Part shown: in pieces, positions 485 to 40,200 of the stretch
Layout of the letters: each line of letters opens with the position of its first letter
Numbering within the stretch: position 1 is the first letter of the stretch
From: Saccoglossus kowalevskii
Taxonomy: Eukaryota; Hemichordata; Enteropneusta; Harrimaniidae
Direction: 5' to 3'
Assembly: GCF_000003605.2 (NCBI RefSeq)
Contig: NW_003105607.1
Coordinates: 334,550 to 384,740, forward strand
Length of the DNA stretch: 50,191 bases
Translations under genes and position numbers: made by a program
The notes under the pieces: model-generated
The model's database searches: none
Told to the model about the DNA's origin: nothing
Seen by the model: the letters and a program-made list of their open reading frames with translations, nothing else

Positions 485-604
485 CTTGTCGGCATACAGT
501 GCTAAACTCACTAACATAGCTTTAACAATCACTTTAACATCACTCGTGCATGGCCGGAAGTTCAGTTTTTTAGGTTGTTCACGTACAACATAAGCCTTTA
601 TTTT
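485..604 (-). CDS. Candidate internal exon of an unrecognised gene (partial)
   Basis: A 120-nt block on the minus strand is flanked by a good acceptor (TTTATTTCAG) and donor (AAG|GTAAGC). It is open in only one of three frames, phase 0 to phase 0, giving 40 residues that begin KIKAYVVREQPKKLNF and end SLALYADK. The peptide is balanced in composition, unlike most chance frames in this AT-rich DNA. A short stretch further downstream on the same strand (near 60-110, after a TCGACAG acceptor, encoding ILRRLPADTKEN) could be the next exon. A block near 780-835 (GTAATTACAG ... GTAAGT) could be upstream, but its outgoing phase does not match. I do not recognise the protein. If real, the gene runs off the left edge. 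Confidence 0.35.
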
Positions 605-3765: not shown

Positions 3766-3974
3766 TTACGGATATATTTGAGTGCTGTATCGACATAGGT
3801 TTTCTTCGTATTCAGTTTCGTATTCCAATATTGTTTCCGTGTTTACTTCTATCAGGATCACACCTGAAATATTTTAACACGGAATGATACGTCTGTTACG
3901 TATATGGTTAGCTAATGCAATACTGCCCTCAGTCGGTGAGATGTTCGTCAATGCACCAACGTAACCTATCGATA
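3766..3974 (+). repeat. Dispersed repeat, copy A
   Basis: This 209-bp block matches 48706-48910 in the same orientation at roughly 90% identity by eye, with a 4-bp indel near the 3' end. Both copies start at TTACGGAT and end at CCTATCGATA. Flanking sequences differ, so the boundaries are sharp. It has no obvious terminal inverted repeat. It could be a SINE or MITE, or a terminal fragment of the Penelope-like element that adjoins copy B. Confidence 0.85.
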
Positions 3975-6947
3975 TAGTTTTTAAAGTGAAAGGAATAAAT
4001 ACAACATAGTACAACGCAGTCGATTTAGTCAAACCATAGACTTTGTAGAATAGGGATATGAATCACTCACAAACAACGTCTAGGTTGTGATCTGTGTAAT
4101 TTATAAATGGATTAACTTGAGTTAAACAAAAGAATCACCATGTGCAGTTCTGGTACAGTGAATTTGACAAGGACGAGAAAACAGTTTAATTACCAATTAT
4201 CTCTCTCTCAACATTTCATTGTGGGTATTATGGGCATAATAAGCATGTTATACCCCCTTTTCTAAAAAAAGAACACGAATTGTATATCACGTAAAATTTT
4301 GATCCATAAATTAGTTATGTATGAGAGCAACGACCCATTTGAGAATCTTCTACGTTTTTTATATATGTAGGACATGTCATACATTGGGCATTTTTGTTCA
4401 ACAAGAAATTTGAATTTTAAGATTATTGACACAAGTTAGTAATGAATTAACAGAAGGGATCACAGACAACATGACAACAAAGAAAATGTCTCCTTTAATT
4501 ACCCCCTCCTTAAATGAGTCTATACACAAACCATTTCAGGATGTGTGAGGGCGCTGTATTTAACGGAGTCAATGACGACGTGTGATTTGAATATGAATAC
4601 ACAGTTGCTATGAACGCTTTGTGCTGTCCGTACTTGCCTGTATTGTGTAAAGTGCTAGCGTGAATGTCCAGGGCCATAATAGCCACGTACTCATCACCAG
4701 AAACCGGGCCCCAGGCACTATATTGCCAAGATAAGTAAGTGTCAATGCGAAATGTAATGATTAGTTTGTACATACTGGTATTTATTATTTTATTCGGCGC
4801 TTACCGTACAGCGGCCATTTTGCAAAGTTACAAAGTACGAAATGATAAAGTTGGGTACGGAACAATTACTCCATAGTGTTATAACAATATACTGTGTTGC
4901 GAGGGTCACTACTGGTGTACTGAGAATGTATCATCGAGACGTAGAGCTCCATGGTCGAATTGACGGGTACGCGTTGGCAGACCGTTATCGTACGTACGTG
5001 ACCGCGTAACTGAACGAGTGGTATCAAGGTGAAGCCACGAGTGTGATCGGGAAACACGATTTAATAACATACTTTGGAATAGAATTAACTATAGAGTTCA
5101 CTTCATCCACTTTCTAAAATTTCAAGATATGTGTTTGTGTGTAAATATCTCGATGCATTGTTGTTCCCCGTTGCTCTTGGCTAACTCCGTGTAGTTACGT
5201 CACGTCCGGCAGTCTGAGCATGTAACTACAATGGTCGTAGCTAATCGATGGCCTGTAAGTGTAAATACAACGCACAATAGTGGCTCCATGTGAAACGAGG
5301 TTGCCTTACAATCAGGATTATAACGCCCACCAATCAATCAAACGGCGAAACTAAGTTTCTAACTCCAACGGAATGCCAGTTTATTCAATAAACATCACAT
5401 TGTAACAAGTACTGCCTGTAATTCCTAAAAAAAACGTCATGATTGTTGACGATTGGCAACTTTTATTAGCGAAGCCCTGTATACATGATGTATGAAGCTT
5501 AAACATGTATGTGAAAAGTAAGGTGATTAATAACAACAGGAATTGCCGCGACTTCGTAGACCTGATTATTTATTGAGAAGCGACACTTGGTCAACACATA
5601 TATGTTTGAAGACCAACATTGATTATCCACGCCTATCCAGTGGCACAGTAATAACTTGCATATATTGTACACTCCCTATAGTCATTTGTTTTCGATTGTA
5701 ATACAATACGTCACGGTAATAAATCTGATACTCGGGATATTCTTTGCAACCTAAAACCTTTGTAACCTAAAACATATATGTCGGCAATTGCATATATTTG
5801 GCAGAAAGCTGCGATGCCAGAGAATATGACACAAGCAAATAATGTACAGACGTATTATCCTACGACAAGTTTCCATGGAAAGATTTACATTGCCATAGTT
5901 ACGATTTAGTAAACTATGGAGAATGTCTTAACGATGCAAAATGGATGAGGAGGGCACGTATTGTTTAATACGTTGGGTTGATACTGATATATACATATTG
6001 ATGAATACATTGGAATATACTTTATCATTCGTAAGCTGAAAATGCTGTTTTGTTGGCACATCTCTGAGTTTTCGTTCCATGAAACAATTATATAATTCTT
6101 TAATACGCACGCGCACTGGTTGTTTCGGTAATACCAGTACACAATAATAATCGATGGACGTGCGTATTATAGTTTTTGGTTTTTCATGCACCAAATATTG
6201 TTGTGTGTCTTGCAAACGCATTTTTTTAGTTTATGATAAATCATAGTCCGATTTATCGAGTATCGAACAAAAATATTAAATATATATATGTTTTTGTCGA
6301 TAGTGTATCTTGAATTACATTATTTATATTTATGCATTTTCACTGCCACTATTTAAGTCACAAAGCAAGACGATTTCGGATAATGTGATAATATTTTACT
6401 AAAATCGTGTTAATATTACTTAATATAATTTTACATTTACACCCGCCATGACAAACTATTATATATGTATATCGGAATGCATCAAATCGCCGCGAAGTAT
6501 CACAGTTCCGTGTATAACATTCAACTGAGACCATTCATGGGCAATCTTTACACAAAATCAGTTGTATATTTACAGGGTAGTATTTCTTAATACAGTAATA
6601 ACATTAATATATACCTGTATGCAGAAATAGAACACACTGTTGTGTATTATCTATTTTTGCGCTCGTAACACATACATATTTTATCTTGTAGATATATAAT
6701 CTAGATTATAGTTTCGCATTAGTCTGTAAACGTGATTATAAGTATGACCGACCGTCGTGAGCATTACCAATACAGTGACAAGCAGCCATCTAAAACACGA
6801 AGCTCTACACAAGGTAGGTAACGCTCGGGTTCTCATTCAGGGAATCGTGACCATAAGATACCTGTTATTTGTCAGTTCTTGTTGTTTGTTTGCTTTTCGT
6901 TTTGTCTATTTAAAATAAGTTGTTGTCATTTTTATAGTTATTAGCAT

Positions 6948-7684: not shown

Positions 7685-8188
7685 TCATTCCAGCCGGGCG
7701 ATTAGCTGCCAGATACAAGGGGAGAATATCTCATTTGGAAAGGTCACCATGGAAACCATCCTCCAGCTATGCCCATAATTTGTTTCCACGACTTCACATC
7801 CACATTCCCCGGGCCGTCGATTCCTAACAATATAATGATTAACGTCACTTCCGGTTTGCAGAATTACTGACGTACCGCTAGTGACGATGTAGAGACGAAC
7901 ATGAGATGGGTCCTCACAGTCATAAACACATCGCGAGTCGCATTTGTTGTTGCTTTTATTCGCTCTTTTACACTTTTGTGCCTTTTTACAAAAAATCACT
8001 TTTTGTGGGAGAACCGCACGCTGAAATGCGTTGAGATGATTCACATGTTGTGTTTTACAAATAGGTTTCCCTTTAAATTGGGATTTCCTAATCGCTCGGC
8101 ATTGTTTTCTGTGTACATCACTGTATATAACGTATAAAAAACACGAAACATTTTGATTAAATATTATTATTTTAAAACTAATTCGCAT
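7685..8188 (-). CDS. Possible cysteine-rich ORF, unrecognised
   Basis: An uninterrupted 167-residue frame on the minus strand. It contains about a dozen cysteines, concentrated from the middle onward (for example CKKAQKCKRANKSNNKCDSRC, then GECGCE). The first residues are hydrophobic (FLYVIYSD) but do not make a clean signal peptide. A possible acceptor (ATATACAG) lies just inside the 5' end, so the frame may be an exon rather than a single-exon gene. A shorter frame overlaps on the opposite strand. I recognise no family and a frame of this length can arise by chance in a 50-kb window, so confidence is low. Confidence 0.2.
   Translation of the reverse strand: MRISFKIIIFNQNVSCFLYVIYSDVHRKQCRAIRKSQFKGKPICKTQHVNHLNAFQRAVLPQKVIFCKKAQKCKRANKSNNKCDSRCVYDCEDPSHVRLYIVTSGTSVILQTGSDVNHYIVRNRRPGECGCEVVETNYGHSWRMVSMVTFPNEIFSPCIWQLIARLE
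7743..7756 (+). promoter_or_regulatory. RFX X-box-like 14-mer
   Basis: GTCACCATGGAAAC fits the X-box consensus GTHNYYATRRNAAC at every position. It lies about 3.2 kb upstream of the plus-strand paralogue's start and inside the weak minus-strand cysteine-rich frame, so its relevance is uncertain. Confidence 0.25.
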
Positions 8189-10935: not shown

Positions 10936-10946
10936 GTGGCATCAAG

Positions 10947-12966
10947 ATGGCATGGAACTTGGCAACATGTGATCACCCCGCTGTGCTGCAGCATATGCAA
11001 GAAGCAAACACCCAGCTCCTCAACGAAATCCGCAAAATAAGATGCAGCGAGTACAAGAAGTTGTTTCAGCAGACGAGGAGTTTTCTGGATGCGTTGGAGC
11101 GTACACCATTGGCACGCCATCGTTCTTACGGTCCGAGCGTGCGGACAATGAGACAGATTCGAGATTGCTACCACACTTCGCAAAAGATGGACGGTGAGAG
11201 AACGACACACTACACAGTTTTACTCGGCTACTTTATACATCTGGGAGACGAACTGCGACAGCTTGCCATTAACGTGAAAGAGTGGTTGGGGGAACCCGTG
11301 GAACAACTCACCGTTCACCCTTCCCAGGAAGCCTGCGGCAGGAAAATATTGGAGGAACTGGCATTCTGGGACACTTTCCTGAATGAAGATAATGATTTCA
11401 CTGATCTACATAAATACAAAACTTTGGAAGAATTTCGTGGTTTGAATACTGGGGAAGTCAGCATATATGGCGCCGTCGTTAATCTGTTGCCTGTAATGTT
11501 GAAAACTATCGAACTCATCACACAGGAGGTAAGAATAAACGAACATTGACATAGAATGCGAAACTTGCATCACAATGTGATCTATAGTATGATGTGTTAA
11601 TCATGATGTGCGTACGTTTTTGTGTTTAAATTATAAAAGTAATAAAATAAAATACTTTTATGATTTGAATGAAGATAATTTTCTAAAATTGCCAGATTAT
11701 ATATTTTAGTTATATTTTACGACAATATATTATGTCAAGAATACGAACTTCTCAGATGCTCGAATTGAAGCTGTTAGATCTGATCGTATGATTTGATGTT
11801 CATTTGTTTTTAATTTAAGTATTTGCAAAATATTAGGTTGGCAATATTATAAGATGACAAGTTGAATTAAAACACGTTTAAAGAAAACTTCTGATATCAA
11901 CACGAAATATGAAAATGTCAGATCTGCGGTTAATTTGGTTTGACACATTTTTTTTCGACAATCAAGCCAGAGAAGACAATGAGTCATAAATTGATATAAA
12001 ATCTACCAATCATCGAATCAGGACTTATGCAGTATTATGTGATCCGGTAATCACTACATTATTGTTACGTCATAGAATCACAAGACTGTATTATCTATTT
12101 AAATGTTCTATATACCATTGTAACTTTACAACTCATATGATGTGTTTTGTTACGACAGGTAACCAAATGGTTAAATACGACCTACCGCCTTGGCATGGGA
12201 ATCTTCAGAAATGGTAGAAGTATTCTAGTTCAAGAGTCCTCAAACGGCCCGGCTGTGCGCCCGGGATCAAGAGCAGGTTCATACGCCGGTTCACGCTCAG
12301 GATCACGTGCTGAACCTCGCCCAGTAAGCAGTCGAGACCATCGCCCCAGCAGTCGTGCCAGTTACGAACACCAGAGACCCGGCAGCAGAAGCAGCGCCAT
12401 GGTGGAGCGCCCGTCGACGGCGAGAGACAGACCGTGCAGTCGATATGGCCACACAATAGCTACACAGACAGATTTTCAAAGACCAGCCTCTAAAGATATC
12501 ACCAGGCCTGCTTCGAGGGACGCTCCGCGAACACGAATTGTGTCAGCACCAGTTTCCAGACGATCGTATGGTAAGTCTCAGGTAAAAAAAAACTTTCCCA
12601 TTTTGTAAGTAGAAGATAGAAATCCAACCCGCCACTATCCTTGATAAGTTAGTAACATACACCGAAGATAAAAAAAAAATACAGACAATACATGAGTATA
12701 GTGATACACGGTAAATTGCACCACTTATTATTATCTCGATATGAATGCATGCAATGGAATAATACACAAATATTCGATGGCATCGATGGGTTGCTATTTT
12801 TCTACAACGGTTCCGATTATTATTTTTATCAACAGCTGAACAACTTGCATCCCGATACAATGGAAGAATATCCCTATTGGAACGACCTCCATGGAAGCCC
12901 TCCTCCCAGGTACCACATAACCTCTACCCGAAATTGCACATACACCTCGGAGACAACGGATACTAA
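10947..12966 (+). CDS. Unrecognised helical protein with RPxS-repeat tail, paralogue 1 (374 aa)
   Basis: Three coding exons: 10947-11528, 12159-12570 and 12836-12966. The joined frame is 1,125 nt with a TAA stop. Exon 1 (194 residues) is predicted largely helical and shares SFLDA, ERTTH, ELTVHP/QLTVHP, NDF-DL-KYKTL and RGL--GEV with the minus-strand gene at 17009-18300 (roughly 45% identity by eye). Exon 2 opens with a conserved W-----LGMGI block. It then encodes a basic, disordered stretch rich in RPGSR/RPASR-type repeats and the motif ATQTDF, a TQT core typical of LC8 dynein light-chain ligands. Exon 3 ends in a conserved ERPPWKP block. Donor GTAAGT at 12571 was chosen over CAG|GTAAAA at 12582 because only phase 1 gives the RPPWKP tail shared with the paralogue. 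The ATG follows a TATACAG acceptor by 11 nt, implying a 5'-UTR intron. Function unknown; a ciliary or microtubule role is inference. Confidence 0.85.
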
Positions 12967-13920
12967 CGTCGACATGGTCGTACCGCCGGATTATTTCGAT
13001 CGAAGTCACATTTACCATCCTCGCTACTGAGAAGAACGCCCCCTTCACCAACAATTAATGTTGGTTTATCTACACAATTAAGAATACAGTCAAATAATCT
13101 GCAATATTTTAGTGGATACCTTCAAGTTGTTGAGCCACCATCATTGGCCACCACCGTCGTTTTAGATAAGCCTGCCAAATTATTTTCTATGGACACATTG
13201 GTTGTCAACATTCGTGCCTTATTGTACTTTTTAGTCTAAAACATTCATCCCGTGTCAGTGCCAGTACTGTACGGTTGTCTGTACCAATTCTAGTGTCCTT
13301 ATAAAAACCTGTATATATTTTAAGGTGAATGACTATCATTATTATCGTAGTATTTAAACTCTTCCTAATTGGTAGAAAACGCTGTATATATTGACATTTT
13401 TTTCTCAGGTTTATTTTCCGTTTACCGCGCTTTCAACTTTTTACAGTTTTAAGTCATGGTTCCCGGAATGAAACTCCCTCTGAATAGTATCGTAGAGGGC
13501 GCATTCTACGAAACATGCCCCGTTCTTGCAATATTACCCTGGGTTGGGAATTTGCCATTAAACACTCTGAGGGAGATGGTTGTTTTTCAATCTATACTGA
13601 AAAAAAGTTATAAATTATATATCTGTTGAAAATAAATAACTACAATATCCTAAAAGCTAGTTCAAAACAAAGAAACGCAATAATTTGCCATCCTCTCATC
13701 CCGTAGTTTATAATGGCAACCCCAACGTAAATAGCTGTTAAATATAAACAAGTTGTACCATGTACCAAGTAACTAATCACTCTGGGCGTAATCGCACGTG
13801 ACTACATGTATTGTCAGTTTCAGTAATAAAACATTTTTTTGTAGAATATTTTTGTACCGTATCAATATACTAGTGAATATCGTAACGAATAATGGAAGTC
13901 TATAATGATATATAAATGTA

Positions 13921-13956
13921 TTCACATATTAAATTTAGTTCACATATTAAATTTAG
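13921..13956. repeat. 18-bp perfect tandem duplication
   Basis: TTCACATATTAAATTTAG occurs twice head to tail without mismatch, in an AT-rich stretch about 1 kb beyond the stop codon of the plus-strand paralogue. Confidence 0.9.
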
Positions 13957-14144
13957 TTTATATGTACTTTTTATAGCATTGAAATAAACAGATAATAATG
14001 CGGGTTAAGTCGTTTCTGATTCTGCTCAAGTTCAATCTTGTATGTTTTGTTTGTTTGTGTGCGACTGTATGGTGGACTTTTGTCGTCCCATCAATCCCTA
14101 ACTAACCAGACATGGTCGGCGATAGTTAAGCGTTCGAGTGAGTC

Positions 14145-14176
14145 CGTCGGTGATAGCGCTATAACTATCACCGACG
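14145..14176. other. Perfect 12-bp-arm hairpin
   Basis: CGTCGGTGATAG and CTATCACCGACG are exact reverse complements around an 8-base loop. It is more GC-rich than its surroundings. It could form in the 3'-UTR of the plus-strand paralogue if that transcript extends 1.2 kb, or be a regulatory palindrome. Confidence 0.6.
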
Positions 14177-16524
14177 ATGTTAGTCTAATCCACAGCGTTC
14201 CCAGCTCGACATCAATCGTGGTATCACACCCCCAGAATCAACAGCATGAAATACACTTGGACTATAGAAGATTAGTAACGCGAATTAACCCATACTTTAA
14301 ACGAGCGTCGGTGAAACTCATTAAATGTATTTAATTTCAATTAGTAGTGAAATGCATGTCAAAACTGTAAGAAACTGTGTTAAACCTAAATATGAATCTG
14401 TGAAAAAATAGGAAACTGGCACTACAATTCAGATGGCTATGTTTATTTTGAAACAGTACTTTCTGTTCCATGGAGTACGTATGGATAACCATGTATTGTA
14501 CATATTGTATTGTAATTACGTGTTCCAATGGGAATGTGAACGAATTTAATTTTATAGGTTATGGGTACTTTTAATTTAATTTTAATGCGACGTTTTTAGA
14601 GGGTGCCCGACTTAAAATTCATTGAGAAAATATTGCTAATTTTAGTATTAGTTAACTGTGAACAATATAATGTTGTTTATTTTAAAGCGGGGGAGTCGTC
14701 GCCATAGCGTGTCATTTTTTACAAATAAGCGTCTATCCATGAGCCTTTGCATTTTAGCGTGTGTTGTTATCGTCGCTTGGGACTCAATTCCCGCGCGTGC
14801 GCAGGTGACGCCCCTCCCGCTTTATCCTTGTCATGTATGATATACATGTATACATCATAGTAACCCATCACACTAGAATTTGGAATATAGAAATATGTTG
14901 TCAGCATAGCGACAACCAATGGTAAAACTAACACTATAAACTCTAGAATTGTACAACTTCATTCTGGTAATAAACGTAAATTTGATGCCTCTGCCTTCAT
15001 CTGATTGTAACCATGGTGATAATATTAACTGTAATCGATAAATATAATGTTGTACTGAATCAGATGTGGATTTAGAGAAAACATAGAAAAATACGTCAAC
15101 AATATTTATTGTTGTATCCAACGTCTAGTACTCTATGACATGTTACTTCTTGAAAACGCACCAATCCCGTATCTGCTGATTGATTACCATTTGGATACAT
15201 ATTTAAAACAAGCTCTTCCGCTAATCTATTTTTCTCGGCACTGAGTGTGACAATCGTCATCTCTGACTCATTATCCAATAAAATCATCCTTGAATCACGG
15301 TTCAACCCTAGCGCTAGAGATGAAAGCTGATTTTCATCCTTGAATCTGGTAAAAAGTACTTCTTAGTAATTTCCAATTAACAGTGTACTAATGTGATTTT
15401 CTCAGTATGATGCCCTCTATTTTTCTCCTCTAAGTTACATTTTCGACGTAGAGGGTGTAATTCAAAGGTGTTTTGTTAACCTGCCACGCAACGCTTACTC
15501 AAAAGAAAATTTTGAGACCTGATGAATAATTATGTCATCAGAGTTCGCAACAACACATACAAATTGAACTGGTCCTTAGAAAATGATTACTGGGTTTCAG
15601 TGGTCAGAATAACCGACCTTCAACGTTGTACTTGACCGCGGGAATATGTTTACATCTTTTTAATTAAAGTTCGTTGTTAAATGAGGTTTGAATACTGGCC
15701 CGGTCATGCCACACCTCTCTGGTAAGTAGGCACAAACTAGGATTTTTTTTTAATCAAAATATTTACTATAATATCGTATTTCATTTAATGTTGTTATTAT
15801 TCTCTGGGGATATTTATTTTGTTGGGGAAATTGCCAACATTTTGTCAGCGCGTAAACTCGACGCACTGTTTCCAATAGGAACTGCAATCAACACACTTTT
15901 TGCAACACTCATTACAAGTTATACAGCCCCCCCCCCAGAAGAAAAAGACGTTTAGTGTCTTTGTTTTGAATGCCTTTAATATGGCGTATTTTAATTTAAT
16001 GGCAAATTCGAAAGTGACGTTCAAATAACGCGTTGAACGAGGATATATTTGTTAAAGTAAAATTCACATTTAAGGTTGTCTTATGTTTTCTGGTAATCTG
16101 ATATCATCCAATCAGGCGCGTCGATACATTCATGATCAACTATTCTTATCCAATCTGACTTGTTGACACATTTATGATAAACCAGGTGTGATAGTCACGT
16201 GACACAAACACGTTATCGGACTTGCAAATTCAATACCATCATGTACCTCTAAATGTGTAACGAAGAATTTGCCTTGGTGTTAACATATCTTTATTAATTT
16301 TGAAGTATTACATTTGACAACATTTCTCCAACAATGCAAGTTTATTTTAATCATTGCCACTGAGCACAATGCATGCTTTAAAAGAATTCATTTGCGCTTC
16401 TTTCTCTGTAATTCTATGTAGTTTTGATTTAGATATAAAACGAGCTCTAAGCATTTCCGTCAATTATTCACATCTTGATGTAGCTATTTTACACTGACAT
16501 ATGGTTTCCAAGGCTTAACCTTTT

Positions 16525-16735
16525 CACCACCAGAACTAGACTTTCTGCACTTTTTTATAATAATATTCAATATTTTTTTATATCAACCATAATTTTGGAG
16601 CAAACAGGAAATTTGAGTAAATTTTCAGTCACCACCAGACTTTCTCGCCCAAATTTGTCTCTGCACTTTCAATACCTTTGCGAATGAACCTTAATTTTGA
16701 AGCCAACAGACTAAACTTTAGTCACTTTTCAGTTT
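16525..16735. repeat. Degenerate tandem repeat, ~105-bp period, two units
   Basis: CACCACCAG recurs at 16525 and 16630. Each unit then carries a TTTCTGCAC/TCTCTGCAC block, an AACC(A/T)TAATTTTG block and a closing TTTTCAGT. The two copies are strongly diverged. Confidence 0.55.
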
Positions 16736-17008
16736 TTAATTAAAAATTTAGGCTACTTTTGTTCCCATATTCCGAAGGAAAGTGCAGACTATAAACAGGA
16801 CTATTTTGTGAATTTGTGATGAAAGAGGGAACTGGCGGTGCACACACACATTGGCGTTCAATGATTTCCACTAAGACCACAAGAAACATCGCATTGAAAG
16901 CTAAGCCCCATACCACCCGTGACACAATTTACTTTCAAATACTACTATATATACAATTCTCTTAGAACGGGGTCTATATATTACGATGAACCAGAACTGG
17001 AAGAGCGT

Positions 17009-18300
17009 TCATTTTCTCCTGGGGATAGGTTGGTGTATTTTCCCGGGAAATAAGTTGGTTGGTTGTTTCGATGGCGGTTTCCATGGTGGTCGTCCTTCCA
17101 TTGTGTTTTTATCTGCGGGAAAAAATAGCAAAAATAATCAAACTAACGATTTGTATAAAAAGAGTAGGATACTAAAAAAATTGTTGGACATATTCATTCA
17201 CAATAATAAAAAGGTTTGGACGGGCTTACTTTATGCTTTTTTATGATAACGTATACATTACCAAATAAATATATTATACTTACCGTTGACCCCCCCCCCC
17301 ACCTCTTCCTCAAATAAGATGTGTTATCGCAATCTTACCTTTATTGTCATTCGTGTCTTCTTTGGGCGTCGGTGGCGGTGTTGGTACTGGTGTATTTACT
17401 AACAAATGACTGTAAATACCCATTCCCAGTTGAGTGGTAATGTCGATCCAACTTGCTACCTAGTAATACAAGAGATATAACTTCCGTTATAATAGTGACA
17501 TAAATAATAACAAAGCTTGGTTTTTATTAGGATTAGTATAAAACGGGATAAACGTATGAATATGGCAGTCTAAAGAGTGATTTCGTTTCGTCATCCCCAC
17601 CCCGTCTGTTTCGTCGTTACCCTTCTACGATACGTGCCTCAGCAGATACTATGTCCCGGAACCAAGCATCTATAAGAATTTAAAATTAGAAGAAGCTATA
17701 ACTTACCATTCCTGGGACATCTTCGAGACATTGTAAGAGTACGGGAGGTAGATTAACTACGGGTGCCCACCCCGGAACCTCGCCGCAATCTAAACCGCGT
17801 AATTCCTGCAGAGTTTTGTACTTTCCTAAATCCATGAAATCATTCTCTTCTTCGATGTATTTAACAATAAAGTCGATTTCGCAGCATAGTTTTTTAGAAG
17901 CGGCCTCTTGATCTGGGTGGACTGTCAGTTCTTTTATGCCATCGCCGATCCACGCCCTCACTCGGTTTGCCAGGTCACGTATCGCCTGACAGACGTGTAA
18001 ATAGTAACCTAGTACAATGGTGAAGTGCGTCGTTCTCTCGTCGCCGTCCATCTCTCGGGACAACGCGTAACATTCGCGGACGTCGCGGATTGTGCGAATT
18101 CCGGCGAAGCTGTGGTCGTTTTCGGGGACTTTGCTGGTACGTTGCATGGCGTCCAAGAAACTACGTGACTGGCGGTACAGGGAGTTGTATTCACCTGCAC
18201 GGATGTGAGATATCTCCCGTATAAGCTGAGCGGTGGCGTCCTGCACGTACTCAATCATTAAGACCGGATCAAAACGAGCCGGTTTCGTGCCGTTACTCAT
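17009..18300 (-). CDS. Unrecognised helical protein, paralogue 2 (272 aa)
   Basis: Three coding exons on the minus strand: 18300-17707, 17459-17339 and 17112-17009 (TGA). The joined frame is 819 nt, with exon phases 0 and 1 identical to the plus-strand paralogue. Exon 1 encodes 198 residues with the family blocks SFLDA, DGDERTTH, KELTVHP, ENDFMDLGKYKTL and RGLDCGEV. Exon 2 is only 121 nt: it keeps the W-----LGMGI block, then a short PTPPPTPK linker, and lacks the 97-residue Arg/Ser repeat and TQT motif of paralogue 1. Exon 3 carries the conserved GRPPWKP block and a basic end. The start follows a TTATTACAG acceptor by 8 nt, as in the paralogue, so the longer open frame upstream to 18477 is intron. 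It is convergent with paralogue 1, consistent with an inverted local duplication. Function unknown. Confidence 0.85.
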
Positions 18301-18595
18301 CTTGACACCTGTAATAAACAATAAGAGAATCATCAAGTGAAGGCAACAGTTTAAATATGGCCCAGACCGACAATAAGGAGTACAGAAGATACACATGATG
18401 GGCACAAATCTTGTACTCAGAAGTAAGATAATGTTAACTATCTCTTCTTCTGTTGTGGAGTTATAATTATGAAGCAATCTTGATTGGTGGTTTAAGCGTA
18501 ATGTAAGAGTTACAACTTTCGCGTGACGTAGGTACGATACACTTCATTTTAACGAACTCTTTTGGAATCACACAAATAGTTTGTTATAGTGAAAT

Positions 18596-25768: not shown

Positions 25769-26642
25769 GTATGCTATCATAATTTTTGATCACACATTAT
25801 TAAACTTCACCGAACAAAATGATATTTTACAGACATTTCAAATACAATCGATGAGCTATATGTTCGATTGAATCATATTTTGTGGACAATGTGTGTATAC
25901 TATAGTAAGCATTGTCAATTTGTTTGATATACAAGTCATGCAACGCAAACTTTTGTAAATCATTACTTTATACTTAGTCTAATGATAGTTATGATAATTC
26001 ATGTGTACAACCGGAATACGCTCAACGTTTTTGCTCTTATAGATGGTAAAATATCTTGACGATTACGACGTGCATTTGGCAATATTTTTTCACAAATATA
26101 AATTTGTCAATTTACTATCGCTGCCACCTGAAAGCTGTTTCAAATTATTTGATTTTTGCTTTGGTTCAGTCGATTGCTACACACTGTGTTATTATAGTGT
26201 GTTTCATTGTTTCAAGTTTTGTAGACAGGGTGAAAACAAAGTGCTGCACCCATAAAAATGTCAGGTCTTGGATAAACCTACCGCTTTTACCACTCTTAGT
26301 CTTTTCCAACCATTTCCTGATTTTCCTATTATTCCTTGTCCTTATGTATGACAACATTTTCTATACATAGTAGTCACCGACTCTAGCTGGACACCGGAAA
26401 GTCAAAATAATGTCGAGCTACCAATAGTGGGTTGTACCTACACCTCGTATCAGCCCTGAAAGTTACAATAGTATTGGATGGGCATTGAATTGACAAGCTA
26501 TGTAAAGATCTTGCAATCAAATTCGTTGAGATAAGTTGGTTTTCAATTAAGGAATATATTCTAAAAATATGATCCAATTCTGTTTAAAATGTTTGTTAAA
26601 AACACGCACTTTCGGATAATTTAGATGACAAGCAACGCCTGA

Positions 26643-29073
26643 CTAAATGAGCCCTTGCGAATTTGCTGGCCCTGCATCTGGTACATTCAAATTCAGGTGT
26701 TCCTGAACGTCTTGCTTGAAGGCTGAACCGCCAATATTACGCCTGTTCAGTAACCAATAGGTGGCCATTCTACCCTTGCCCTGCAAAATAATTTATTGTA
26801 ATTCTGACATTAATCCAAAAAAGAATGCCGAAAATCACGAGCACAAGAAATGTATCCGATGAGAGATATGTAAATGTATATTTGCTCTTGGTGCAGCATT
26901 GGTATCAGTGTATGTAACAGTCGGCCGTTTGGGTGGCACTATTGTCGTGGTGTGTGATATTCAGCCACGGGTGGGATATTGTTGGCAGGGTGTGTGATAT
27001 TTACTTGAATCTAATTACCGTAATTGTAATTTCTCCTCTTTGTTTCATAACAAAACAGTCGATGTCTTTCAAAATATCGCGGGTATGTTCACTCAGGTGA
27101 ATACGATTGGCTGCAGTAGAAATGGACATGTTGTAATGATATGTATCATACGTAGGTTCACATTCTATCACCCCCCGGGGGATACTCCAAGTCAGACCTG
27201 GTACCCATGCTGAAGTATAGCTTTTCAAAAAAGCCTCTAAACACGTACTTATTTTGGTGAAATTATACCCCTTTTCAAATACAGAAACTTAAAATAGATA
27301 CCCTATATATATATATATATATACTAAAATCATAATGTTTCCAAGTTGAGGTAACATGAATTCATGAGAAACCCTTTTTTTTACACTTTATTACTACACA
27401 CGCGTATACGCGGCAAATAACTAAATAACGTCCCTTTACGCGTTTTTTTACTTCAGCTTTCGTGCCATATTTCGTGCCATATTCAGAGACCCCCCCCCCC
27501 CCGAGTTATCACCACAATGCACCAAACCCGTCACAGATAGAATGTATAGAAATACCACGTACTGCCACAAAGACGACATCTACTTACGCAGGCCGGTGGC
27601 CTCCATTCTTGAAGCAATTCTTACTGAGTAACCAAATAAGTAGTAGCGAGGCATTTTCGTGCCGACGATTCCGGCTGCAACAGATCCAGTATGGATCCCA
27701 ATGCGTAAAGTCATCTTTGTTCCTGGTTTGTGAGGAATTACCAAACTTTCTGCGCAACTCACCATATCCAATGACATAATAGCTATCTCACTTGCATGAC
27801 GCTTACCATTAGGTTTGGGAATTCCTGTGTTAATAAAACTACAATTTTATTGGCAGTCCTATTCATGGTGACATCTGTGTGATTAGTTCGCGAGAAAAGA
27901 ATAATATTCAATGTTTTGTCATTTATTGTGCAGTTTGTATTTCACGTTTTATTACGTAATATTTAAGTGTTCATGCATTTGAAATTTTCAAAAAAATAGA
28001 ACGATCTTCAATTGTAATCTGAACGTTCATGTATAATAAACTTATGCATATATCCTATAATTTCTAAACTAAAATACAGATCGACATTTACCCACTCAGA
28101 GACTACTCAATAACTAAATATTGCTGACATAATTTTAGCGCCTGCGTAAGGTTTGTGTATACTGTGATTGGCGAAAAAGGCAGCCTCACCTGACACCACC
28201 ATATATGCATCGCCAATAGTTTCTACTTTGTACACGTCGTAAAGGTCGATGCGTCGATCGAAGGTTGTATACACATGGTTCAGCAATTCCACGACCTGCA
28301 TCGGAGAACTATCCGAGCAAATACGAGTAAAACCGACAATATCCGAAAGGAAAATGGTCGCTTCTGAGAAAGATTCGGCAGTGACAGTTGAGTTCTGCAT
28401 CAACTGCCGAGCAATCGACTTCGGCATCAAAGAGTAAAGAATGGTACTGACACGTTTCCGTTCTTTATTTAGCGCCTTGGTTTGTTTGGCCAACGTAAGG
28501 GCGTAGTTTTGAGTGTTGCCTGTCAGAACTTCCACAGCCTTGATGATAATGCCACACATTGTCAAGACCACGGCCATGGTACCTATGCGGACACCTAGTC
28601 TTGTATCGACTACGTTTATCCGTTCTTCCAGTTTGAAGACTATTATTTCGGTCATACGACGCTGACTGTCCTTCAAAGTGTCGATGTAAATGGTCATGTT
28701 ACTAAACCACCAGTTACCATCCTCCCATGATGCATCTCTCGACTGGTTATTCAGTTGAATGGGTCTTCTTAGTTTCGCAATCGTGCTTCGAAAATCGTAT
28801 GGTAACTGTTGCACCTTGTTTTCTAATAATTCACTATATAAATTGGTTGGTAGTTATTACGTTGGACAATTAATTAATTAATGCAAGTTTTATATTAGAA
28901 ATATATGTATAGAATGGAACTTACACCAGTGTCTGAGTCTGATTGCATCCATTTTCCCTGTTAAATGTGTCTATGAAGTAGCGCGTATCTTCTGGAAACG
29001 AACCGCTACTTATGAGTGATTCGCTAATAATGATAACATTTACTAATGACAATGACCACAGTTCCTCAACTAA
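26643..29073 (-). CDS. NIT-domain receptor guanylate cyclase, 5'-incomplete (419 aa seen)
   Basis: Five exons with consistent phases: 29073-28925, 28833-28190, 27824-27588, 27110-27019 and 26780-26643 (TAG). Residues 1-125 resemble the second half of the extracellular nitrate/nitrite-sensing (NIT) region of animal cyclases ([22 protein letters not shown]). About 131-150 is a membrane segment. About 166-195 is the signalling helix linker ([13 protein letters not shown]). The rest is a class III cyclase domain converting GTP to cGMP in the cytosol. Metal-binding Asp214 (FLSDIVGFT) and Asp258 (IGDAY) and the guanine-selecting Glu254 (YKVET) are intact. However, the segment usually reading YCLFGDTVNTASRM is [14 protein letters not shown]. 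Thus the guanine-site Cys is Tyr326, the Asp is Tyr330 and the catalytic Asn is Arg333. No in-frame start is visible, so upstream exons are unseen or lost. It may be a pseudoenzyme or an early pseudogene. Confidence 0.88.
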
Positions 29074-30246
29074 CTATAGTGAAGCTTTACATGACACTTT
29101 ATGTCACGTGCACAGCGCATGCGCATGCATAGACGCAGTGTATAATTCTTTATATTTAATTTTCTGATTATATTTTCATGCCAATCTTCGTTTTGGGTGA
29201 AACATAAACGAAATACAGTACCATTAGATTGTTATTCGTTTAGTTTTTATGACCAAATACTAGTACTTAAAACTGGCTTGCACTGGCAATTCCCCGCCAA
29301 TAATCATATATATCTTCATGGTTGGAGTGTCAAATCAGCAAGATATAGGTAATTATTTAGGTAATTCAAAATTCAAATTTATTTACTTTGCATGTATGTT
29401 ATGTTTGTATTTGAAGTTTTAATTTCAAAGTGTGTCTTGTAATTTTAATACATACATGTACACTTACAAAAAAATATCCAAGAAAATGTATTCTATAACT
29501 TGGACAAAATAAATCTCTAGTTGGGGTCCCTAGTCAAAAATGTTCTCTTTCTTCGAGAATTCACAAATAATGTATTCACTTTTGTGTTTACACTCTGAAT
29601 TATTTATTATTGTGCAGTCATTTACGAAAGTCCCTTTTTTCTGTTAACTCTCAACTTATTTCCGAGGACAGAAGGCTGAATTTGAATGTGAACTTCGCTG
29701 TATGTTGGCTCCAGGGATTACACGTCAGAGAAGTAGACAAAACGAAAACTATATAACAATAGAGAACTATGGAGCTTCAGCTGTCGGTGATAAAAGCTAA
29801 GGATATTTTGTATAATTGTATGGTATATATTAAACTATTTGGAACGACACTGTGTAGGTGAAAAAAACACACTTGATGTTTGATGTTTAGCGCCCATAAC
29901 AGTGTATGGTGGATACTGTGTGTAATAAGCGACATAGATTCGTGAAGTCATTCTTGAGGTCTCTCTTCCCTAAAGTACAAAATAATGAGGGAATCCTGTA
30001 CCAAGTCACTCTGGTGTTGCATGGCAACGATTTACGGGAAATCCCATCAATGACTCGTTAGCTAGATGTGCTTGTTATGAATAACTTTAGATCAAGACTA
30101 ATTAAGTGTGTAGTAGTGCTTCGAGAACATTTAAAATATCAAGTTGAAGCTCAGTTAGGGTAGCAACAGGGGAAAACAAGATAAACACATTCTGTGATTC
30201 AGTTATTCTCTAAAAGTTACTAAACATGTCACAATCTATACATAAT
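29074..30246. other. Upstream flank of the cyclase
   Basis: No further NIT-type exon could be found on the minus strand. The interval includes the NRF1-like palindrome at 29115-29124 and an adjacent E-box (CACGTG, 29105-29110). The rest appears to be plain AT-rich DNA. Confidence 0.4.
29115..29124. promoter_or_regulatory. NRF1-like palindrome
   Basis: GCGCATGCGC is the core of the NRF1 consensus and sits about 40 bp upstream of the first visible cyclase exon on the minus strand. This position would suit a promoter, but the adjoining exon has no in-frame ATG, so the link is uncertain. Confidence 0.25.
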
Positions 30247-30477
30247 CTGAAATATATTGCCAAATACGGCAGTGTACATCTGAAATATATTGCCAAATAC
30301 GGCAGTGTACATCTGAAATATATTGCCAAATACGGCAGTGTACATCTGAAATATATTGCCAAATACGGCAGTGTACATCTGAAATATATTGCCAAATACG
30401 GCAGTGTACATCTGAAATATATTGCCAAATACGGCAGTGTACATCTGAAATATATTGCCAAATACGGCAGTGTACAT
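30247..30477. repeat. Perfect 33-bp minisatellite, 7 copies
   Basis: Seven identical head-to-tail copies of a 33-bp unit starting CTGAAATATATTGCCAAATA. Since 33 is divisible by three and several frames lack stops, it creates open frames on both strands with 11-residue repeats (LKYIAKYGSVH on the plus strand). No start context, splice sites or flanking coding sequence support translation. Zero divergence implies recent expansion or active homogenisation. Confidence 0.95.
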
Positions 30478-31344: not shown

Positions 31345-33005
31345 AGATAGCTCCGCTGTTAGCAATGCACATTACAATTAAAGAACTGAAGATATCATTA
31401 GAAAATGAACAATATATATGTAACAAGTCATTGAAAATGACACAGTCCCCGTTAAATTTTTGAAAGTTCTCTTTGTGCTTGTCATATTAAAGCGGGGGTG
31501 GTTGTCGCGAGCGTGTCCTTGAAACTTGAGTTCCAAGTGGCGTATACAACAGATTGTTTATTTACATCAAAACACGTGTTCCGTGTAGTAGTAATATGGC
31601 CAAAAATAAAAACAGTCGTTAATCGGCCAACTTTGATCTGATTATGAAACACACTGATATGTATGATGTATGTGCCAAATACGAATGAAAATGGTACATA
31701 AATTGTGGAAATATAGTAGTAAGGCCAAAAAGTCAGATTGCTGTCAATCTGCCATCCTTGACCAGATTTTGAAACAAATTGTCATGGACATGCATCCTAA
31801 CATGTATAAAGTACATGTATGTGCCAAATTTGAATGAAAACTGACAGAGCACTTCCAAGATACCGCATAAAAAAACAAAACAAGATGCCTGCCAGTCGAC
31901 CATCTTTGATCCAATTGTGAAATAAATCGTCATGGACATGTATCCTAACATGTATGATCGATGTACTAAATTTAATGAAAACTGACAAAGCATGTCCAAA
32001 ATACAACATTTCAAAAAACAAGATGGCTGCCAGTCGGCCATTTTGAATCGAATCGCTAAACCACTGCATGTGCATATGTCCCAGATAAAGTACTAGGCAC
32101 ATGCAAAGAATGAACGGAATCGGTCCAAGGGATTCTGAGATATGACTCCGGACGGACGCACAGACGCACGGACGGAGACCGAATTAAAAAAGCAACGGGA
32201 CAAATCTGAAAGAAGTCCACACGTAGTACGTATATATGTAATATAAAAGCAATCGGACTTGCGGTTTTCAACAAGAAGTCGAAAATATCACTTTTTACCA
32301 AAAATGACAAAAATATTCACCAAAATTCGAGAATTAAAGATATCATTACAAAATGAACAAATCTGAGAGAGGTCCACATGTAGTACCTATATATGTAATA
32401 TAAAAGCAATTGGACTTGCTGTTTTTAACAAGAAGTCGAAAATATCACTTTTCACCAAAAATGACAAAAATAATCATCAAAATTAAATAATTGAAGATTT
32501 CACAACAAAATTAACAAATCTGAAAAAGGTCCACATGTATTACCTATATATGTATTATAAAAGCAATCGAACTTGCGGTTTTCAACAAGAAGTCGAAAAT
32601 ATCACTTTTTACCAAAAATTACAAAATTATTCACCAAAATTAGAGAATTAAAGATATCATTACAAAATGAACAAATCTGAGAGAGGTCCACATGTAGTAC
32701 CTATATATGTAATATAAAAGCAATTGGACTTGCGTTTCTTAACAATAAGTCGAAAATATCACTTTTTACCATAAATGACAAAAATACTCACCAAAATTAG
32801 AGAATTGAAGATATCATCATGAAATGAACAAATCTGAGAGAGGTCTACCCAAGGTACATATACACCAAGTATCAAAGCATTCAGGCTTGTAGTTTTCAAG
32901 AAGAAGCCGAAAAAGTAAAACATTGACACAGACAACGACGGACGGCGACGAACACTCACTCATATGATAAGCTCCGCTCAACAAAGTCAACAGCGGCGCT
33001 AAAAA
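31345..33005. mobile_element. Non-autonomous element with internal tandem arrays
   Basis: The left edge has GATAGCTCCGCTGTTAGC near 31347. The right edge has AAGCTCCGCT, then AACAGCGGCGCTAAAAAGC near 32990, giving imperfect inverted ends (AGCTCCGCTGTT against AACAGCGGCGCT). Inside are a diverged repeat of about 140-148 bp (landmarks GTCATGGACATG at 31781 and 31929; GCCAGTCG at 31891 and 32029), a GGACGGACGCACAGACG block, then the 157-bp array. Elements with a core of ~160-bp tandem repeats are known from marine invertebrates (pearl and Helentron-like types). A second, shorter relative lies at 37755-38050. No transposase is encoded. Confidence 0.65.
32201..32985. repeat. 157-bp-period satellite-like array, five units
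   Basis: The landmark CAAATCTGA (or close variant) occurs at 32201, 32358, 32515, 32672 and 32829, a constant spacing of 157 bp. Each unit includes GGTCCACATGTAGTACCTAT, AAGAAGTCGAAAATATCACT and ACCAAAAATGACAAAAAT. Units two to four are most alike; the outer ones are diverged. Confidence 0.9.
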
Positions 33006-34238: not shown

Positions 34239-37200
34239 TTATTTTCTTGCATACCGCCCAACAAATGTAGTTGCAAATGTATAGATTCCATCCAGATCAT
34301 GTGACTTCAGAGAATTCAAAATAGCCAGTTCTCTAGTTCTAGGTGTTGAATGTGTCTGACAAGAAATTGAATATAATCAGCATCAGAACAAATAAGATAA
34401 ACTGAGACATTAAAATTCAATGTACATAATCATGTTCTTACAAAACCGATTGGAGTGCTTTTCAATAACCTGTCAATCCATGCGCTTTTCATAGTGATCA
34501 AGTGATCAGTAGACTGACATATCACCTGTATAACACTGGTGATGTAACTATTTTTCAGGCCATTCATTAATTCCTACGAATCCAAACATGTCTTTTTGTG
34601 TAAATATAGACTATTCGTTTGGAGACTACAAATAAAGGCCATACTTTTATTCACAAGACTGTTGGGAGGGGTGCGGTGACTCTGTGCTTTCTACACATGC
34701 CTGGACACCACAGGTCTAAGCAGCATTTCTGCTTTTTCTTTCTAAATAATGAAAACTCAGTTACAGTAAAAGATGTATAAGGAATCCAGTGGAGAATTTA
34801 AGAAATATACTATTATAGAAGTGATCTTTTCATTACAAATACCTGATTAAGTTCTTGTTGCTTTTTCACAAACATCTGTAAAGCTGGATGCAATAAAACA
34901 GAGAAACTGGCATTGGCTCTCCGTGACGACGGCAGATATGTCTCAATCGCAGAGAGTGTGCTCTGAAACTTGGCATTCTTAAACGCCTTAGACTGCCACA
35001 GAGCGTTGCAGACACATAAGACATAGTTGTTCATAATAGGTATCTTCTCCTTCAAAATATCCTATTCACAAAAGATAATGCATGATCCAACCTTTACATT
35101 CATGACTCATTCATGGGTTATTGTTAAGGCAGAAGCTATTTAGCAGCCATCACTGAGTTCTAAACAACATGTACATTTATATCCAAATAATCGAAACATA
35201 TGCATAAAAAGTACACATAATTTCTTTGCTTATCAATCACCCTCCAAACACAAAACAAAAATTTGCAAATTCCAAATGATTTTTTTTCATTTGTTAAAAC
35301 ACAATTTTGTGAAAGTAACCTCAGAGATATTTTTACAGCTACAAAGTTTCATGATTTTCACTTTAAACTCAGGAAAGTCACAAAGATTTTTCTCTCACAA
35401 GATTAAAATTAATAAAGAGAGATACTCACCACATACTCAGCTTGAGATTCCTTCATCAAATTGACCTCATCACTGTATCTGAAAAGATATAATAAATTCA
35501 AGAGTAAAGTATTAAGACAAATACTCCTATGGTATACAGTCACTGGGCTGATATGCACTACACTATACAAAACAAATTTGCGTTGGTTANNNNNNNNNNN
35601 NNNNNNNNNNNNNNNNNNNNNNNNNNNNNNNNNNNNNNNNNNNNNNNNNNNNNNNNNNNNNNNNNNNNNNNNNNNNNNNNNNNNNNNNNNNNNNNNNNNN
35701 NNNNNNNNNNNNNNNNNNNNNNNNNNNNNNNNNNNNNNNNNNNNNNNNNNNNNNNNNNNNNNNNNNNNNNNNNNNNNNNNNNNNNNNNNNNNNNNNNNNN
35801 NNNNNNNNNNNNNNNNNNNNNNNNNNNNNNNNNNNNNNNNNNNNNNNNNNNNNNNNNNNNNNNNNNNNNNNNNNNNNNNNNNNNNNNNNNNNNNNNNNNN
35901 NNNNNNNNNNNNNNNNNNNNNNNNNNNNNNNNNNNNNNNNNNNNNNNNNNNNNNNNNNNNNNNNNNNNNNNNNNNNNNNNNNNNNNNNNNNNNNNNNNNN
36001 NNNNNNNNNNNNNNNNNNNNNNNNNNNNNNNNNNNNNNNNNNNNNNNNNNNNNNNNNNNNNNNNNNNNNNNNNNNNNNNNNNNNNNNNNNNNNNNNNNNN
36101 NNNNNNNNNNNNNNNNNNNNNNNNNNNNNNNNNNNNNNNNNNNNNNNNNNNNNNNNNNNNNNNNNNNNNNNNNNNNNNNNNNNNNNNNNNNNNNNNNNNN
36201 NNNNNNNNNNNNNNNNNNNNNNNNNNNNNNNNNNNNNNNNNNNNNNNNNNNNNNNNNNNNNNNNNNNNNNNNNNNNNNNNNNNNNNNNNNNNNNNNNNNN
36301 NGTTCAATGTGGTACATACATTAAACATAATAGGACCTTGATGCACGTCTTTTATTTTCGGATCAAGTTCGAAATGGCCGACTGGCGGCCATTTTGTTAA
36401 AGAATTCAGTTCTGGATCCGTATCCAAGACATGTCTGGATTGATCAAGTTCAAACTTCACACACACATGGTACATCATGTCACAAATAGATATGTGCATT
36501 TGTTTCATGATCTGCTTAACAATAGCGGAATGATGGCCATTTTAAGGCCGAAAATGCATCAAAATCACGTATTTTCACAATTCCAGAACCGGATCTCAGT
36601 CATGCATGGATGGATTTTGTTCAGATTTAGCACAATGTGTTGTACATATGCAAGTGCATTTCGGTCATGATCTGCTTTGAATGTATATGTCACTCAAATA
36701 TGAACGGAACGGGGACGTGTCATTGACAATGACTTGTTGAATAAAAATTCAAACCAAAAAGGGATTCAGATGCACAGCACAGAAACACATGATTAGGAAA
36801 GAAACACTATGATCAGTAAAGCCTGTACTTACCGACAGAGAAGCTCATTTATCTTGGAGACAAACACAGCACTATTACCATACAAAGCTCTCTTCACTAT
36901 GGGTGATGATGGAAGCTGTAGAAATTTGAAGCCATGTCTGGAATAGAGTCCACTTGTCTATGAAGAAAGAGAAGTTGCTATGACATCATTATCCATATAA
37001 ACAGCACTGCTGTACAATCATTTCCATGTTGGAATAAACAAAATTCATCATATTTTCAAGCTAAAAAAACATGCCCTTAAGGGTAATAATAGTTGATACA
37101 CTTCGATTATAAATGATGCAATTCACACATGATTTCAGACAAATATATGCTACATTGTGATGATTTGCTCTGCTCAGCATGAGTGTAAAATGACCTGGAG

Positions 37201-40200
37201 ACGTACAAATGCACACAACATATACGCAACACATACATTTAAGTACACAGAAGATGCAGCTGTATCCATTGTATGTTCACTAAGAGCAAAGCTCTAAAAT
37301 CGGAATACAGTTGTACCATTTTAGAAACCTTAATACATGTTTTGGCTGAATCCAGAAATTGCATTAACAATCTAGATCTGGAACAGCTTGAGACGAGATC
37401 GGTATCAATAGATTTGTCTAAATGACATTTTTCAAAGTGTTTGACAGTAATTTGAGAACAAATTCTCATAATTACACAGAGTGCAGTCTAAACAGTAAGA
37501 ATACATACCACATGGAAGAAATCTAATACATAGCTCATTAACAATGCATTGTTCTTTTCAACTTGTAATCCAACCACACAGATGTTGTCAACAAAGTTAA
37601 TAAATTCCACAATTGTATTGTCAGTGCTGATTTGCTCCGTTTGTTGTCCAAATATGGTACTACAAGAGGAAAACACACAAACATGGTCAAACATTCAGCT
37701 GCTTCACTATGGGTGATGTAATATCTAAAAGCAATTAAATTGAAAATATTGTCACAGAAAGAAGTTCACCAAAGGTACCTATACAATGAACATTCATTGT
37801 ATAAAACATCAAAGCAATCAGGCCAGTAGTTTTTGAAGTCCAAAATAGCATTTTTTAACCAAAAATGACAAAAATATTCACCAAAATTAGAGAATTGAAA
37901 TTATCCTCACAAAATGAAAAATCAACTCAAGGTACCTTTCTGAACGTTTTTTAAGAAATCAAAAATGCAAAGTTTACAGTGGCGACAATGCCAACAGACA
38001 ATCAGTTATATGAATAGTTTTGCTCAATTTTGTTGACAGCAAAAATAACTAAATTAAACACGTTAAATCAAACAACATAAATCGCAGGGATTATTATTTT
38101 TCGACCCCCAAATGTTAGAGAGGGATCTCTATTTCGGTCTTGGTCCCATTTTTAATAAAAGATAGCATATTTGGAATATTATATTCTAAATCATTTCCAA
38201 TTTTGTGAATTGATGGTTATACCATGCAGATATAAAAGCCACAGTCATGGCACCACTTCTTGTTCCATGTAAATCATTAAGAATATTCATATATTTCACA
38301 ATAATGTGTTACAAATCTGCAGAACAGAAATGACCACTGAATAAAAGTGTAGGCAGTTGTGACAACATATTCAACCTAGTGAGGCAGATGCATTTTTCCC
38401 CCCAGACAAATACCATACCACACGAGAATATGTTAATCATTGTGTTCATTGTTACAGTAATTTGGCTTTATTGTTTAACCCAAAATTATATATCGTAATT
38501 GGCCCTACTGTACTCTATAATTCACAAACAAGTTTTGACTTTATGCAGTCATTATTTCATGCATACCGTTCACAGCAATCTCATTTTAAGGGTTCATCAC
38601 TACTAATATTAATAGCTTATGAATTCACATCAACACCTTCAATGCAGTACAGAGGCAGAGTCGTTATATAATAACAACTTTCTCTCTCATTCTTGTGTAT
38701 CATACTCACTCATTCAACAGTATGGTACTTTCAGCGATGTTGGTCTCTTGTTGCTTAGCGACTGCCCGTCGATGTCTGGGTACTTCTACGGACATCAGGT
38801 TTCTTAACAACTCAGTGAAACACCACAGAAGTAGACATTTGAAGTAGACACCAGAACAAAAGTACAACTTACGAAGTGGCTCCAAAAGTAAGTCATTCAT
38901 TTCTAGGAAGAATGAAAACAAATCCAAAGAAAACTTAGAACTCCTGTGTGCCAAGGCAATTGGAGGCATGAAATGTTTATAGGAAAAATTTTAAATTTAA
39001 CACTCAAGACTATTAAATACAAAAAAGTTGTCAGTTGATATAGGCTCAGGCATTAGGATTCAAAATGTGACACCAATCTGATCTACAGTGAGTTAGTAAT
39101 ACTATGAGGTTATTACAAGGATACCTCAAAGTATGCACGAAGACAGTACAGCGGCAGTATCGACCGACACGCAGCGGAGGTCGATGCAACAGCGTACTGT
39201 CTGAGTGCATATATACTTTGATGTATCGTTGTAATAACCTTATTATTATAATCTTTTCCTTCCAAGGATACATGATGGGAATGCCGAAATCCAAAAAGTT
39301 TAGAACAGAATTCACGAACTTCTTTGTATGGAGTCCGGTCAAACCCTAGTGGCAGCCATGTTTGTTTTTATTATTAGATGACGCTTATGCACGTAATCAT
39401 TCCATATTTGGAATTTGCTTTCAAATACCCAAGGAATGTGCTGTAAGTTTAGTGTGTATGCAAGGGGGATTTTCTATGCAAAAATGTGGTTAAACTTTTT
39501 TAGCCTAATCTTAATGAATTGATTGCTTGTGAAAGTTTGGTATTTTTCTTCTGATTTTTAGGAATATTTGTTTAGCTTCAGGCCAGATTCAAGATCGCCC
39601 TCATATAGTAAATATCATTGTTAAATTAATTATTATCACTTGTACATTAATATGCATGAATTTCAACCAAAAACTAACCATGTTTATAAGTATCACAGAA
39701 CTAGGACATTGCTTTTTGTTTTTGATCAAAAAACTTTCGTCAACATTATCAGCGGAAAGTAGAACTATTTTGCGGATAGTGCCTAAAGTTGACTTTGGCA
39801 CTCAGAGGGTTCAAGTGGTTCACAAGATAACAAGGAAACAGCTAAAAATTGATTATAATTAAGCAAAATAATATTCATCAATTTCAACCAAGAACTAACC
39901 CAGTTAGTAGATTATCTAAAAGCACCTATCCCACACTGGATGTAAATCAGACACAACTGAGCATTTACATTAAACTTTTCTAATCACTTTAATACTAGTA
40001 TTTGCATACGTCACATAGAATGGTTGATTCATCGCACTGCATCAGTGGCACATTGTTGAGGCCAGACTTTTTTTATTCCTTGTTTCTTGAGTTTTTATAA
40101 GTCAATTTTTTTGAAGAGGGCGAAAAAAAATAAAATAAATTCTTTTTTTCCATTAAATTTGTGTGATTCTCAAAGAATTGTAAGTGAGATCATTGATCGG

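Follow-up and report, generated by a model that had tools for sequence, protein, structure and literature searches.

Two convergent genes, here called A and B, lie at the end of a contig in the genome of the hemichordate Saccoglossus kowalevskii. We analysed the 50,191-nucleotide stretch that contains them (contig NW_003105607.1; C53:334550-384740), hereafter the window, and searched the 572-Mb assembly of 4,830 contigs to which it belongs. Each gene is composed of a SPACA9-like domain, encoded by exon 1 and the first codons of exon 2, followed by a basic low-complexity tail. SPACA9 (sperm acrosome-associated protein 9) is a small helical protein located inside the microtubules of cilia and sperm tails.

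Gene structure and coding constraint

An earlier reading made from the letters alone, the sequence-only reading, had proposed two three-exon genes of 374 and 272 residues in tail-to-tail orientation. We rebuilt both models exactly, with A on the forward strand, closed by a TAA stop, and B on the reverse strand (Table 1). The internal junctions, all of them predicted, are GT/AG in both genes, and the intron phases are 0 and then 1, as proposed. Also as proposed, a splice acceptor in the 5' untranslated region (UTR) lies 8 to 11 nt before each ATG, and a six-frame translation of the window shows the W-----LGMGI start of exon 2 once in A, once in B and nowhere else. RPPWKP occurs twice, in the third exons of A and B, whose conserved end reads (R)PPWKP...NL(Y/F)P. 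The same frames hold an RSPWKP, which belongs to a further copy described below, and an isolated KPWKP at 16516 (-), which by eye is in another phase, lacks the NLFP block and was taken for chance. The tail of A contains eight RPx[ST] repeats, a number reached in none of 10,000 shuffles.

The exon-1 products of A and B are 46% identical, with 89 of 192 aligned codons alike in the proposed frame, compared with 44 of 191 residues in common, interrupted by stops, in each of the two other frames. Differences per codon position were 0.42, 0.29 and 0.62, highest at third positions, and maximum-likelihood estimates gave a nonsynonymous divergence (dN) of 0.51 and a saturated synonymous divergence (dS) of about 3. 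The codon-position bias, the saturated dS and the poor performance of the other frames indicate that both frames are under protein-level constraint; judged on these alignments, chance or a shadow frame cannot be the source of the likeness. The same figures imply that the duplication is old. A longer frame of 124 residues (12656-13030) overlaps exon 3 of A, but when the last exons of A and copy C are compared, the proposed frame gives 26 matches in 40 residues and the others only 13 in 39 and 11 in 39. The longer frame is thus a shadow, as had been argued.

Homology of the exon-1 domain to SPACA9

The sequence-only reading had recognised no known domain, and this stood for the Pfam, NCBIfam and PHROGs families, where the best candidates for exon 1, TIGR03299 (E 0.082) and phrog_22365 (E 0.035), were hit by one member each and were rejected. 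Neither A nor B matched PF15120, the Pfam family of SPACA9 (gathering score 25 bits), and the exon-3 pieces matched nothing in Pfam. A sequence search of the PDB returned two rows for A, judged chance, and none for the A+B profile or the exon-3 profile. No relatives were found among viral contigs or prokaryote genomes, so those sets give no sign of a horizontal origin, and the window contains no Rfam or tRNA match. Profile-profile comparison and, more weakly, fold ranking nevertheless lead to SPACA9.

A profile of A and B aligned with four mammalian SPACA9 proteins over 130 columns, ending in a common Y-G-x-V-V-x-L-x-P-x-x-L helix (E 2.2e-4; each hhalign E-value refers to a single comparison). 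When rerun, this comparison scored 33.5, against 19.2 for the best of 60 column shuffles and 14.1 for reversed SPACA9. In each of 17 hhalign comparisons, three of them with A+B, none of the 60 shuffles did as well.

The genome also encodes a canonical SPACA9, gene S (140.4 bits to PF15120), and a gene D on another contig (G000:C2785), which was found from A (31% identity, E 0.016). D aligned with positions 8-148 of the 164 in PF15120 (E 0.003, 17.7-17.9 bits), below the cut-off, and matched the A+B profile with probability 94.3 (E 1e-7). With D added, the profile matched mammalian SPACA9 plus S with probability 95.9, E 5.9e-9 and a score of 59.7, against a shuffle maximum of 19.1. With a further gene, E, added as well, the probability was 97.2 and the E-value 2.9e-11, a comparison for which no shuffles were made; A+B against E itself gave probability 31.6 and E 5e-4. 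The chain from A and B through D to SPACA9 makes homology the best reading, and we hold it very probable, on these profiles, that the A/B domain is homologous to SPACA9. Identity to human SPACA9 is 19-21%. The sequence-only reading had named a strong match of exon 1 to a named family as grounds for its refutation; what emerged is a remote homology only.

Structure prediction of the helical domain, which the same reading had proposed, gave AlphaFold models of low confidence, with mean predicted local distance difference test (pLDDT) values of 48.8 and 51.1. Despite the low pLDDT, SPACA9-bearing entries ranked first by VIA-align for both exon-1 models. SPACA9 itself has eight helices, a four-helix bundle with two short ones after H1 and two after H3. 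In the low-pLDDT model of B, two short helices follow the third long helix of the bundle and one 15-residue helix follows the first. The fold ranking would place the domain with SPACA9, less strongly than the profile-profile comparison does. We regard A and B as divergent SPACA9-like paralogues, and do not file them as SPACA9 because they fall below the Pfam cut-off and lack most of the tubulin-contact residues.

A small cluster and its relatives in the genome

A tblastn search of the window with A revealed a third last exon, copy C (68% identity over 38 residues, E 5.5e-12), so the paralogy that had been proposed is real, but not confined to a pair. The order of the locus is C(+), A(+), B(-). 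Genome-wide, the A exon-3 query matched A and C, missed B and returned neither D nor E, and the A exon-1 query matched A, B and D alone. No exon-1 relative was found beside C, either in the window or, by profile search, in the 8.5 kb before it. A possible preceding exon would give C a 67-residue product, a weak proposal from an open frame and a donor; if expressed, C would encode the tail end alone.

The sequence-only reading had inferred an inverted local duplication. The arrangement fits this, as does the pairing of A and B as sisters (99/99) in a tree of seven rows (bovine and pig SPACA9 omitted). The same tree joins S to the human and mouse proteins (96/96) and places D and E weakly (72/74), with E on a long branch. 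However, a blastn comparison of the window with itself aligned no part of the A arm with the B arm at 1e-5, which argues that the tail-to-tail duplication is old and, together with the tandem position of C upstream of A, favours a small old cluster over a single clean inversion.

In D and E an N-terminal part that is SPACA9-like, probably so in E, is followed by a long low-complexity tail within a single frame, which spans 534 codons between stops in D and 439 in E. The N-terminal part of E is not recognised by Pfam, and E is a weaker relative, placed less surely than A, B and D. A stretch on another contig (G000:C4224:201087-201383, L019) is 38% identical to E over 100 residues (E-value 0.063) and has four stops; it is either a chance match or a decayed copy.

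The canonical gene resembles A and B in plan. In S, too, an acceptor in the 5' UTR stands close to the ATG, 12 nt upstream of it (11 in A, 8 in B), and the letters there are similar in S, A and B (GTTGTGTCAACA, GTGGCATCAAG and GTGTCAAG). Its introns have phases 0, 0 and 1, and the last exon, after the phase-1 intron, carries KKVPWRGASK. This plan is compatible with an origin of A and B from a gene of the SPACA9 type that lost its domain introns. Against such an origin, the phase-0 intron of A and B matches no intron position of S, and the likeness of their PW motif to that of S falls short of significance, with one shuffle in 60 doing equally well. Descent of this motif from canonical SPACA9 is only a suggestion.

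Table 1. Positions of the elements of A, B and C in the window, and of gene E in stretch L017 of its own contig.
Feature	Positions	Strand	Basis or remark
A, 5'-UTR end; splice acceptor 11 nt upstream of ATG	10936..10946	+	sequence
A, exon 1: ATG, SPACA9-like domain, 194 codons, phase 0 at end	10947..11528	+	
A, residues 34-189, part aligned with SPACA9	11046..11513	+	hhalign
A, exon 2: VTKWLNTTYRLGMGI, then basic tail, phase 1 at end	12159..12570	+	
A, residues 228-313, part of the tail that holds the eight RPx[ST] repeats	12258..12515	+	shuffle test
A, exon 3: RPPWKP block (12883-12900), stop	12836..12966	+	
B, 5'-UTR end; splice acceptor 8 nt upstream of ATG	18301..18308	-	sequence
B, exon 1: ATG, SPACA9-like domain, 198 codons, phase 0 at end	17707..18300	-	
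B, exon 2: VASWIDITTQLGMGI, then proline-rich linker, phase 1 at end	17339..17459	-	
B, exon 3: RPPWKP block (17092-17075), stop	17009..17112	-	
C, possible upstream exon, running from an ATG to a phase-1 donor	6744..6813	+	open frame and donor alone, weak
C, last-exon copy: phase-1 start after acceptor, RSPWKP (7741-7758), stop	7694..7827	+	tblastn
E, 439-codon frame	L017 856-2175, G000:C4226	-	N-terminal part probably SPACA9-like

Tubulin contacts and proposed function

As described in PMC9564825, human SPACA9 is a four-helix bundle whose short capping helices bind the lumenal surface of tubulin. It sits at the intradimer interface, every 8 nm, via Q20, Q21, T61, R64 and N123, and contacts SAXO proteins via Q20, H37 and Y117. 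PMC13373224 reports that overexpressed SPACA9 bundles microtubules and protects them against nocodazole, and that a single knockout seemingly leaves mouse fertility unaffected. In human numbering, all five tubulin contacts are present in S, two in A (Q20, Q21) and one in B (Q21). Q21 is also kept in D, E and S, and T61, R64 and N123 are kept in none of A, B, D and E; a Thr stands one column off T61 in A and B, where the alignment may be shifted. Of the SAXO contacts, A retains Q20 and H37 and B retains H37, and both have a Tyr one column off Y117. The tails of A, B, D and S have isoelectric points of 11.4, 10.0, 10.1 and 10.2, and that of E, which is not basic, 7.3.

We propose that A and B are most likely microtubule-binding proteins of cilia or sperm, with their basic tails as a second contact. 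The domain would form a four-helix bundle with short capping helices, and this head would sit on tubulin in the wall or lumen of the microtubule, likely in motile cilia or sperm, with a footprint that differs from the one SPACA9 has. The tail, which carries positive charge, would reach the acidic lattice or a partner, and the PWKP peptide would be its docking end. Association with microtubules, taken alone, seems to us reasonably probable, and we judge the proposal as a whole, with SPACA9 paralogues, a microtubule-bound head and a basic second-contact tail, to be likely.

The lost tubulin contacts leave docking identical to that of SPACA9 unsupported.

The lost contacts also bear on a different possibility, that A and B inherited the SPACA9 fold and now act off the microtubule, as soluble scaffolds or adaptors whose tails bind other partners. 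A, B, D and E all lack three of the five tubulin contacts, A and B have low identity to the human protein, and adaptor proteins often carry long low-complexity tails. Against this, Q21 persists in all the relatives and H37 in A and B, and A, B and D have basic tails, as expected for binding acidic tubulin; we consider an adaptor role unlikely. We give still less credence to the idea that the helical bundle of exon 1 has no kinship with SPACA9 and resembles it through convergence or statistical accident, since no shuffle in any of the 17 hhalign comparisons reached the observed score and D connects A/B and SPACA9 from both sides. That A or B, or both, are decaying, functionless copies is barely credible: C, for which neither the window, the 8.5 kb before it nor the genome-wide search yielded a domain exon, indicates that decay happens in the cluster, but A and B have open frames, intact splice sites and amino-acid change that is limited beside their saturated synonymous change.

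Other features of the window

Guanylate cyclase exons lie at 26640-28853 (-). Pfam Guanylate_cyc matched the frames at 28107-28853 (E 7.8e-22), which also has an HNOBA match just under the cut-off, and at 27580-27846 (E 2.5e-20); further exons were placed by eye at 27001-27288 and near 26650-26780, and the part before HNOBA may be a NIT-type sensor. At 485-604 (-), an exon-like frame of 40 codons between AG and GT (KIKAYVVREQPKKLNFRPCTSDVKVIVKAMLVSLALYADK), with no Pfam match, is perhaps a piece of another gene running beyond the window. Open frames of 233 and 98 residues occupy 47999-49018 (+); the former, with no Pfam match, we take to resemble a Penelope-like retroelement protein, and the latter had weak Pfam rows below the cut-off. 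The piece at 48706-48910 is repeated at 3766-3974 (91% identity).

Repeats include a perfect 33-bp array (30245-30477, 7.1 copies), a 157-bp array (32200-32845, 4.1 copies, 88% matches) with an array-related piece at 37835-37923, and a perfect (TAAAA) array (2411-2563, 30.6 copies). A run of 712 N at 35590-36301 is an assembly gap or masked stretch, and a long imperfect palindrome at 39097-39248 is 74% identical to its own reverse complement over 159 columns.

Comparison with known systems

SPACA9 (PF15120) and the A/B domain share profile homology over about 134 columns, from a Y..(L/F).QQ...F..AL helix to the YG.VV.L.P..L helix, and the order of long and short helices is similar in the low-pLDDT model of B. 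S further shares with A and B the UTR acceptor near the ATG and the phase-1 last intron. A and B differ from SPACA9 in having an N-terminal helical extension and insertions after the first and third helices, and in holding nearly the whole domain in one exon, whereas that of S is spread across three. They differ also in the long tail of A with its RPx[ST] repeats and in the RPPWKP end of both. D and E, unlike A and B, have domain and tail undivided in one frame, and the tail of E is not basic.

A second comparison is with MNMIP1/SH3D21, a SPACA9 partner at the microtubule seam whose polyproline stretch, with Arg and Lys, contacts tubulin (PMC13373224). This stretch loosely resembles the Pro/Arg segments of the A and B tails. 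MNMIP1, however, is an SH3 protein, and A and B each combine the Pro/Arg segment and the SPACA9-like domain in a single chain. It is conceivable, if quite improbable, that A and B are self-contained clamps of the seam or lattice, with a lumenal head, a Pro/Arg tail running along or through the wall and PWKP as anchor. One chain would then do the work of SPACA9 and MNMIP1 in mammals, and in this animal A, B, D and E would form a second branch, as yet unnamed, of microtubule proteins with the SPACA9 fold.

Among the papers listed in the literature search, we found no paralogous genes termed 'SPACA9-like'; PMC9564825, the only one of them with the term, applies it in its available text to densities and striations, and PMC10973386 names SPACA9 in its reference list alone. 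Searches for RPPWKP, PPWKP, LGMGI and ERPPWK returned matches unrelated by title, and those for amphioxus and tail-to-tail genes nothing relevant among the matches listed. Gui et al. (2022), using Foldseek against the PDB and the AlphaFold database, found no fold like that of SPACA9 and called it unique among human proteins (PMC9564825). Here, one animal genome encodes a canonical SPACA9, a copy reduced to the tail and as many as four divergent relatives, namely A, B, D and, with less certainty, E. If these relatives too sit in microtubules, SPACA9 would be one member that survived from a broader set of microtubule inner proteins, and the cilia of such animals may hold lumenal proteins that curated domain libraries have missed.

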